From: Singulisphaera sp. GP187
GTDB lineage: Bacteria; Planctomycetota; Phycisphaerae; Phycisphaerales; SM1A02
Length of the DNA stretch: 64,000 nt
NCBI GenBank assembly: GCA_945871915.1
Contig: CAMBXO010000004.1
Coordinates: 62,001-126,000, forward strand
Direction: 5' to 3'
Shown one piece after another: positions 27,522 through 45,013 of the stretch (within the stretch, counting starts at the first letter, position 1; the number at the start of each line of letters is the position of its first letter). The translations under genes were made by a program, and so were the position numbers. The notes under the pieces were generated by a model. That model saw only the letters and a list, made by a program, of their open reading frames with translations, was not told the DNA's origin and did not search any database.

Positions 27522-27608
27522 GGACAGGTGTCCGAGCGGTTGAAGGAGCAGCATTGGAAATGCTGTATACGGGTAACTGTATCGTGGGTTCGAATCCCAC
27601 CCTGTCCG
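27522..27608 (+). tRNA. tRNA-Ser (anticodon GGA)
   Basis: An 87-base class II tRNA. Acceptor 27522-27528 pairs with 27601-27607. The anticodon stem CAGCA/TGCTG encloses loop TTGGAAA (GGA). A long variable arm (ATAC/GTAT) and T-arm GTGGG/CCCAC are intact. The 3' CCA is not encoded. It reads UCC/UCU. Confidence 0.96.
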
Positions 27609-27683: not shown

Positions 27684-27757
27684 CGGGCTGTAGCGCAGTT
27701 TGGTAGCGCGTTTGACTGGGGGTCAAAAGGTCGCAGGTTCAAATCCTGTCAGCCCGA
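27684..27757 (+). tRNA. tRNA-Pro (anticodon GGG)
   Basis: A 74-base tRNA. Acceptor CGGGCTG (27684-27690) pairs with CAGCCCG (27750-27756). Anticodon stem TTTGA/TCAAA encloses CTGGGGG. The T-arm is GCAGG-TTCAAAT-CCTGT. CCA is not encoded. Its 3' end (27746-27757) is the left half of the att repeat of the integrated element, and the stop codon of the minus-strand recombinase remnant lies in its T-loop. Confidence 0.96.
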
Positions 27758-43379: not shown

Positions 43380-43937
43380 ATGACTGCGGCTCCAAAACTA
43401 GATCATCCCACGCTTCCACTCGTCAAGGAACGATTTCCGGAAACCACTTTTCTGGCTGCGGAATTTCGCGGACAGACAACGCTTGTTGTTCCCAATGAAA
43501 CACTGCACGATGTCGCCCGCTTTCTGTGCGACGATTCTCGTTGTCAGTACAACTTTCTTGCAGATGTCACCGCGGTGGATTACTTGGAGTATCCCGCGCC
43601 GCAACCTGGTCGCTTTGCGGTGGTGTGGAATCTTCTTAGCCACGCCTTTGATCGCCGAATTCGGTTGAAGGTTTTCCTCTCGCCATCCATGGACACGACC
43701 GGCATTGATGTGGATCCGGCCCTCATCGTGGACAGCGTCACGGATTTGTGGGCTGGTGCCGAGTGGCCCGAGCGAGAGGTGTATGACATGTACGGAATTC
43801 GATTCCGCAATCATCCAGACCTTCGTCGCATTCTGATGTGGAAGGATTATCCCGCGCATCCACTTCGCAAGGACTATCCACTGCGAGGCCGCGGTGAACG
43901 CGAGCATTATCAAAAACTCGCTCGCAATTCTGTTTAG
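43380..43937 (+). CDS. nuoC: NADH-quinone oxidoreductase subunit C
   Basis: NuoC is the 30-kDa subunit of the peripheral arm of complex I. The 185 residues end with the family signature [20 protein letters not shown] then RRILM and LRKDYPLRG. Length fits NuoC alone, not a NuoCD fusion. No other nuo gene is in the window; the gene stands alone after ubiD, so either the complex-I genes are scattered or this is a second copy. Confidence 0.92.
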
Positions 43938-44002
43938 GGCGCTTAACGCGGCTGCACGATTTCACACACAGCAACCGGTGGAGCAACTTCTTGTTGATTC
44001 AT

Positions 44003-44258
44003 GGCCGTTTTCTGACCAGAAAGGCCGGTCGCGCCGTGGATTGTTCAGAAATTACAAAGAACCGCGCATGGATCGCCCGATGAATATGGTTCTGGTGGAT
44101 CTGTACCAAAGCGGGAGTGTCGTTGGGAAGCGACCTCCTGATTCGTTTGATGGCCACGGGAACTGGCCTCAACGATCTAAGCGGGCGATGGAAGGGAACT
44201 CGTCGCCCACCAACCAGCAGCAGGAACTGGCCTCCGTTTGGGGCCTTTTCTGTTTTTC
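44003..44258 (+). ncRNA. Candidate structured small RNA with GGGAA hairpin loops
   Basis: The 343 bases between nuoC and the next gene hold a series of stems on the + strand ending in a terminator. (1) 44003-44026: GGCC and TTTCT pair with AGAAAGGCC, 9 bp with a 2-base bulge. (2) 44114-44138: GGAG-T-GTCG pairs with CGACCTCC, loop TTGGGAAG. (3) 44147-44172: TTGA-T-GGCCA pairs with TGGCCTCAA, loop CGGGAAC. (4) 44183-44208: GGGCGATG pairs with CGTCGCCC, loop GAAGGGAACT. (5) the terminator. Stems 2 and 3 share a single bulged T above a 4-bp base. No protein is evident. The 5' end is unknown. GGA-rich loops recall CsrA-binding RNAs, but this is inference. Confidence 0.5.
44229..44258 (+). terminator. 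Rho-independent terminator of the candidate RNA
   Basis: GGCCTC (44229-44234) pairs with GGGGCC (44240-44245), one G-T pair, loop CGTTT, followed by TTTTCTGTTTTT. Confidence 0.72.
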
Positions 44259-44280
44259 GGTTTCTGCAAACGCCTAGGCG

Positions 44281-44907
44281 TCAGGGTTGCGTTGTGACTT
44301 CGCCGCGAAAGGTGATGTCATCCGCTTCCAGCGTGCGATTGGGCCCGGCGCTTTGCAGCGACCAATTCCAAGTGGGTGACGATCCACTCACTTGATACTG
44401 AAGCGGCGTTCCCCAACCGTCACTCAAAATATCCGTTGGAAGATTGAGATCCGCCAATGAACTTGGGGGCGCATTGTGCTGCCGTTCATATGTGCCGATC
44501 GCGCTGTCCACTTGGAAAAGATGGTCGATGGTCTCGATGGCTGGCAATCCACCGGCCACAACAAATGCAGCGGAACTCAACAGGGCAATTCCACCAGCCA
44601 ATGCAAGTGCAATCGCGGGGAAGAAGACGCACCCACCACAACTTCCTAAGAGTCCAATCACCACACCCGCAATCGCAAAGCCTCGCGGCGACCGACCGAT
44701 CGCAATCAGACTCAAAATGAGCCCGACCGGGCAGAGCAATCCGGCCGTGAGTGCAACTCCAACAAGAGATGTGAGAAAACCAGCAAGCCCCAACGTGTTG
44801 GACGCGGGCGGTTCCATGGGCGTGTTCTGAACAAAAATCGGTTCGCGCGGGTTTTGCATGTGACGAATACGCTCATCATAGTCGCTGGTGTTTGGTGACT
44901 CGCTCAT
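44281..44907 (-). CDS. Membrane protein, DUF4190-like, with pseudopilin-like C-terminus
   Basis: The 208-residue protein has a soluble Pro-rich lead, then hydrophobic segments (LAGFLTSLVGVALTAGLLCP, GFAIAGVVIGLLGSCGG, FPAIALALAGGIALLS). This is the DUF4190 pattern (segment, LILSLIAIGRSPRG, segment). The C-terminal 65 residues (IGTYERQHNAPPSSLADLNL, DGWGTPLQYQ) resemble the globular end of type II pseudopilin GspG. Such a fusion is unusual and its role is unknown. I start at the Met 44907; 44928 is an alternative. Divergent from tRNA-Arg. Confidence 0.72.
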   Translation of the reverse strand: MSESPNTSDYDERIRHMQNPREPIFVQNTPMEPPASNTLGLAGFLTSLVGVALTAGLLCPVGLILSLIAIGRSPRGFAIAGVVIGLLGSCGGCVFFPAIALALAGGIALLSSAAFVVAGGLPAIETIDHLFQVDSAIGTYERQHNAPPSSLADLNLPTDILSDGWGTPLQYQVSGSSPTWNWSLQSAGPNRTLEADDITFRGEVTTQP

Positions 44908-44939
44908 GGCAGAACGGCGTAAACTCATCGCGACTCTTT

Positions 44940-45013
44940 GTCCCGGTAGCTCAGTTGGATAGAGCGGGAGCCTTCTAAGCTCCAGGTCGCAGGTTCGAAT
45001 CCTGCCCGGGACG
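44940..45013 (+). tRNA. tRNA-Arg (anticodon TCT)
   Basis: A 74-base tRNA. Acceptor GTCCCGG (44940-44946) pairs with CCGGGAC (45006-45012). Anticodon stem GGAGC/GCTCC encloses CTTCTAA. T-arm GCAGG/CCTGC with TTCGAAT. CCA is not encoded. It reads AGA/AGG. Confidence 0.96.

Follow-up and report, generated by a model that had tools for sequence, protein, structure and literature searches.

Repeated GGGAA hairpin loops point to a new, sponge-like small RNA family in Planctomycetota

Introduction

Behind nuoC in the window (the whole 64-kb stretch of DNA analysed, from genome G000 in our numbering) lies a short element whose hairpins repeat GGGAA in their loops. A preliminary description, made from the letters alone, took it for a candidate novel structured RNA that might titrate CsrA or represent a new class. 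The locus thus raises the question of whether such an RNA exists and recurs in relatives, and what its loops would bind.

The regulation of CsrA gives this question its context. One study reports a strong anti-correlation between fliW and BarA-UvrY, the switch for sRNAs that antagonise CsrA; it proposes FliW as a possible route in Planctomycetes and assigns sRNA antagonists driven by BarA-UvrY to Gammaproteobacteria (PMC4682653). Another presents sRNA mimicry and FliW as two mutually exclusive mechanisms so far described (PMC7366521). For the whole PVC group, one count gives eight described sRNAs (PMC9029176), and in the open-access literature we found no report of a Csr-type sRNA for Planctomycetota. 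A sponge-like RNA in genomes that mostly carry fliW-csrA plus a second csrA makes the exclusivity rule testable.

Results and discussion

Architecture of the element in the window

Upstream of the element is nuoC (43380-43937, with a Complex1_30kDa Pfam match), and its 3' neighbour is a convergent gene (44281-44928) without a Pfam match. The window also holds three tRNA genes, at 44940-45013, 27684-27757 and 27522-27608. The parts of the element are the following.

44067-44091, + strand: degenerate counterpart of the promoter-like TGA-N20-CGTT block of other copies (CATGG...GGTT), from upstream regions lined up
44085-44258, + strand: candidate small RNA ending in the T tract, its start inferred; extent as common to relatives
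44095-44101, + strand: 5' GGA site GTGGATC, equivalent to GTGAAGGA in most other copies of the genus, from alignments
44113-44139, + strand: hairpin 1 (H1), loop TGGGAA, from folds and compensatory changes
44143-44175, + strand: hairpin 2 (H2), loop CGGGAAC, from folds and compensatory changes
44183-44208, + strand: hairpin 3 (H3), loop AAGGGAAC, from folds
44219-44258, + strand: Rho-independent terminator with T tract, core 44229-44245, from the fold

GGGAA begins at 44125, 44158 and 44194, once in each of the three hairpin loops as first described, and the original hairpin positions hold within a few bases. The H1 stem is made of GGAG, a bulged T (44118) and GTCGT, while the H2 stem is two-part with a bulged T in its lower part; among the three window loops, A(G)GGA occurs in that of H3 alone. 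The original 5' boundary, 44003, was wrong, as the parts common to relatives begin at about 44085-44097. Directly after nuoC, upstream of these shared parts, stands a separate hairpin (44003-44026), which more likely goes with the 3' end of nuoC than with the element. By eye, an inverted repeat or terminator-like hairpin can be seen near the same place after nuoC in some relatives.

The preliminary description saw no sign of protein coding. An open frame (43894-44277) does cross the element, but the aligned copies have gaps of one and two bases and stops in shifting frames. Of 20,000 dinucleotide shuffles, 2 produced three hairpins with GGGAA in the loop, and the triple is unique in the window with both strands scanned. 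The nine GGA triplets, although correctly counted, are ordinary in shuffles (mean 6.8, p 0.17). Likewise, the terminator is present and kept in relatives, but alone it is no commoner than chance, with four terminator-like sites in 2.5 kb against 2.8 in shuffles. The overall folding energy of the element is only mildly low (z -1.74), and a scan for sigma-70 promoters gave nothing at the window element.

Recurrence in two genera

From 15 of the 16 genomes of the window's genus, g1, nuoC could be retrieved, and in six of these the element follows it (G000, G003, G006, G008, G010 and G012); in the other nine it is absent from the 420 bases after nuoC. A covariance model (R1), built from four of the six nuoC-linked copies with the window excluded, finds the window element at E 1.2e-19. 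It also finds second copies elsewhere in the five other nuoC-linked genomes and, with a third place in G012, the genus holds 12 copies. The window copy is the sole copy found in its own genome, and neither covariance model found a true copy elsewhere in the g1 genomes that lack a nuoC-linked element.

A second model (R2) matched 32 of 181 family genomes at E 0.01, of which 18 were kept, six from g1 and 12 from a second genus, g43. The 14 matches that were dropped scored 23-31 bits, and the 12 among them with loci showed no pair of GGGAA hairpins (G178 and G199 fell outside this check). In g43 the design is the same, with up to five hairpins; the copies of G064 and G204 were read by eye, four genomes (G180, G145, G153 and G118) carry two copies in tandem, and two incomplete genomes (G201 and G203) are absent from the R2 matches. 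Altogether our reading gives 28 copies, spread over two genera and 18 genomes, nine of which have at least two copies.

Wider searches added matches of lower quality. At E 0.1, R1 matched 65 of the 181 family genomes, mostly weakly, and the weak matches examined (L077, L078, L081-L098) gave no further GGGAA row in a scan for GGA hairpins. Among 301 genomes sampled evenly from the order, 20 matched at E 0.001, and the 11 that lie outside the family (L138-L148, L150) had no row of GGGAA hairpins. The row filter requires GGGAA; it missed the G064 copy recognised by eye, and more such diverged copies, from other genera, may have escaped it. Nine matching stretches came from a pattern scan of named genomes. 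We set aside as noise a triple CGGGAA pattern that matched 155 of 392 phylum genomes: its backward control also matched many, forward and backward totals not being compared, and the matches were often tandem repeats. Among phage records, one g43 copy had no match.

The copies lie in at least four different, unrelated loci. With names read from translations, the neighbours in g1 are nuoC, a DUF1501-like gene and an ABC exporter, and those in g43 are an ABC ATPase and an acetyltransferase.

Conserved structure, terminators and upstream block

Each copy has three to five hairpins. Their stems vary with compensating changes, whereas the loop is kept, typically as (A)CGGGAA(A)C. The folds repeatedly show two-part stems, in which a small bulge or internal loop separates a lower from an upper helix. 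When eight g1 copies (alignment A9) were folded together de novo, the consensus had three hairpins and a terminator, with double compensatory changes in 19 of 44 pairs, a number that none of 500 shuffles reached; slid versions of the alignment have 3-7 such pairs. The covariation score is 0.329; shuffles give 0.192, and slid alignments no more than 0.108. The measure of further pair types was reached by 12 of the 500 shuffles, and the other four measures by none. Within this fold the terminator has double changes in 4 of 12 pairs, and H3 has a double change in one of nine pairs and a one-sided change in three. A9 combines five nuoC-linked copies with three found by the structure model, which favours structure, and leaves out L008 (near-identical to L006), L102, L103 and L183. 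In a smaller alignment of the five nuoC-linked copies (A1), which were located by position and trimmed to the surroundings of their GGGAA rows, 10 of 41 pairs are compensatory. The preliminary description had named an absence of covariation in relatives as refuting it; our claim that covariation is present draws on A9 and A1. In g43, folding recovers most of the hairpins and 16 of 57 pairs covary; the fold also pairs the 5' end to the T tract, which we distrust. A further alignment (A8, 9 of 10 pairs covarying) was rejected as biased, its hairpins having been picked for having stems.

A terminator hairpin with T tract follows 25 of the 28 copies; of the three exceptions, one is cut by a contig end and two (L103 and L183) lack the T tract. 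Upstream, TGA-N20-CGTT stands at a fixed spacing in 24 of the 28, where chance would give about 0.005 per copy, the copies not all being independent. The exact block is absent from the window copy, L103, L183 and L102. Many copies have GAAGGA or GACGGA within about 15 bases after it. We take the CGTT and the spacing to resemble promoters of ECF-type sigma factors, and the block is perhaps an alternative sigma promoter. By eye, it is unlike the UvrY palindrome given in PMC4682653.

No Rfam family reached its cut-off over the element; permissive searches gave sub-threshold matches only, and no Csr/Rsm family was among them. Given the relatives, the covariation, the repeated copies and the terminators, the element is a novel structured RNA, as first supposed, and almost certainly a real new sRNA family in Planctomycetota.

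Likeness to known RNAs

The nearest designs are the Csr/Rsm sponges (CsrB, CsrC, RsmX, RsmY and RsmZ). Like these, the element carries GGA in the loops of a series of short hairpins and has a terminator; many copies have a 5' GGA site, a genome often holds more than one copy, and csrA is encoded by the host. The differences lie in the loop core, which is (A)CGGGAA(A)C and not A(N)GGAX, in host genomes that mostly bear fliW, and in the upstream block. RsmE is described as needing A(N)GGAX, which the protein reads by way of its own backbone, and these bases are said to be irreplaceable (PMC4005645). The element seems to work like a Csr sponge, but most of its loops depart from A(N)GGAX, one defining feature of the known family, and we do not file it under Csr/Rsm; it may be called Csr-like in design.

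Two other RNAs offer looser parallels. Acido-1 (RF01686) has two hairpins and matches weakly over H2 and H3 of the window (18 bits, E 0.16); its cut-off is 50 bits and its loops and first stem fail to align, so we rejected the match as chance. The TwoAYGGAY motif, judged from its name, presumably consists of paired hairpins with GGA-containing loops. Its listed sources are human gut, Gammaproteobacteria and Clostridiales (PMC2864571, Table 1).

The loop motif

We folded 27 distinct copies without reference to the motif and found GGGAA in 93 of 130 loops and GGA in 103, not counting the last loop of each copy, which is usually the terminator; the copies had originally been found by GGGAA rows or models, so that the sample is not unbiased. 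The dominant loops are ACGGGAAAC, ACGGGAAC and CGGGAA(C), and several fold as smaller GGAA loops. Loop lengths are 6-9 bases, those of six bases beginning with C or T. Of three rare variants, two keep GGA (ACGGAAAC in G064 and ACGGGAGAC in G204) and one is without it (ACGAGATC in G064). In most loops the base two positions ahead of GGA is C instead of A. The fit to A(N)GGAX is limited to some loops, such as H3 of the window and ACGGAAAC, and to the 5' GAAGGA or GACGGA of many copies.

CsrA and FliW in the host genomes

The preliminary description had suggested checking whether the genome encodes CsrA, and G000 has two csrA genes (loci L203 and L204 are their regions). The first (G000:C6:55268-55423) directly follows fliW (G000:C6:54865-55218), the single fliW match of that genome. 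The second (CsrA2; G000:C7:15284-15517) is divergent and lies on another contig without an adjoining fliW; compared with the solved CsrA 1y00, its product has a four-residue insert and keeps the VHRRE stretch. In the family, csrA was found in 148 of 151 genomes and fliW in 131 of 181, and a CsrA2-type protein in all 24 genomes tested. Among the RNA-bearing genomes 15 of 18 have a fliW match, the exceptions being G003, which is listed with no match, and G161 and G168, which do not appear among the matches listed. Since csrA is near-universal in the family and the RNA is confirmed in two genera only, their co-occurrence is uninformative. The listed genomes of another genus, g59, have no fliW match and only one csrA, which scores more weakly.

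The csrA2 leaders (L208-L231) have A-N-GGA in 23 of 24 cases, the remaining one being shortened by a contig end, within GCAYGGA blocks in g1 and CACAWGGA blocks in g43. These look like autoregulatory CsrA sites, and because the csrA2 leaders carry A-N-GGA, the loops of the sponge-like RNA differ from the likely CsrA site. In a separate count of motifs near gene starts, A-C-A-N-GGA was counted 12 times within 60 bases upstream of predicted starts, where about 4 would be expected; it is one of 45 uncorrected counts and is not used as proof.

A proposed way of working

The element probably works by protein titration. The sRNA would be transcribed from its own promoter, its repeated loops would serve as several equal docking sites for one RNA-binding protein, and once made it would withdraw that protein from its mRNA targets. 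Less certainly, the docked protein may be one of the two CsrA, perhaps CsrA2, which has no adjoining fliW. The design and the two encoded CsrA favour the original idea of a CsrA-titrating RNA; most loops are without A(N)GGAX and the GGA count is at chance, and these count against it, as does a window copy that lacks TGA-N20-CGTT and is solitary in its genome. Further points against it are that CGGGAA is not enriched near predicted starts in a sample of the genome and that two copies (L103 and L183) have neither T tract nor upstream block. CsrA as the partner is a tentative proposal, to which we give slightly less than an even chance. Taken whole, our leading reading is a multivalent sRNA that acts in trans to titrate an RNA-binding protein, with CsrA as the best candidate, and we hold it with slightly less than even confidence. 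We give similar, guarded credence to a titration system of Planctomycetota with its own CGGGAA loop code, in which the motif read by CsrA2 has widened or else some unrecognised protein is controlled by a sponge RNA through a shared alternative-sigma-like promoter.

The consequences depend on the partner. If it is CsrA, sRNA titration and FliW would coexist, against the mutual exclusivity described. If CsrA2 reads a widened motif, a FliW-governed CsrA1 would work beside an RNA-sponged CsrA2 in one cell. If the partner is not CsrA, the family would point to an RNA-binding regulator so far unrecognised, in a group for which few sRNAs have been described.

Alternative explanations

It is rather unlikely, though the best placed of the alternatives, that the RNA is a sponge for some other RNA-binding protein, of the ANTAR type or not, with CGGGAA as its own site. 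The common core does exceed GGA, with GGGAA in the 93 of 130 loops counted above, and the recurring two-part stems would suit a protein that reads loop and stem together. EutX/Rli55 offers a precedent, an sRNA with ANTAR hexaloops, whose sites need A1 and G4 (PMC8934654). Our element resembles it in having repeated hairpin loops able to hold a regulator. Against the ANTAR version, its loops of 6-9 bases, with C or T at the start of the six-base ones, depart from the rule of a hexaloop with A1 and G4 given there (PMC8934654).

A base-pairing sRNA, in which the repeated loops would pair with UUCCC-type stretches at mRNA starts, seems less probable still. This reading was weighed on counts of nine motifs in five windows, uncorrected, with a home-made gene caller over 464 kb (the G000 stretches L238-L257 plus the window). 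TTCCC occurred 17 times in the 30 bases before 358 predicted starts, against about 8.6 expected, but this is one of 45 counts, and the longer TTCCCG reached only 4 against about 2.7. CGGGAA itself was not enriched near 359 predicted starts (0, 1 and 2 in three 30-base windows, against about 2.7 each). These counts give CGGGAA no support as an mRNA site and show a weak excess of its complement, which leaves a pairing sRNA as an outside possibility; repeated identical loops are more typical of protein sponges.

That the element is a 3' untranslated part of the nuo genes, or a local cis regulator, is very improbable: six copies, the window's included, follow nuoC, but the remaining 22 adjoin other genes, and in G012 and G008 the element is separated from nuoC by a terminator-like hairpin that has a T tract. 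Least credible of all is the idea that the window copy itself is decayed or a chance structure, for although this copy lacks TGA-N20-CGTT and its fold is only mildly stable (z -1.74), its hairpins and terminator have been kept despite sequence divergence.
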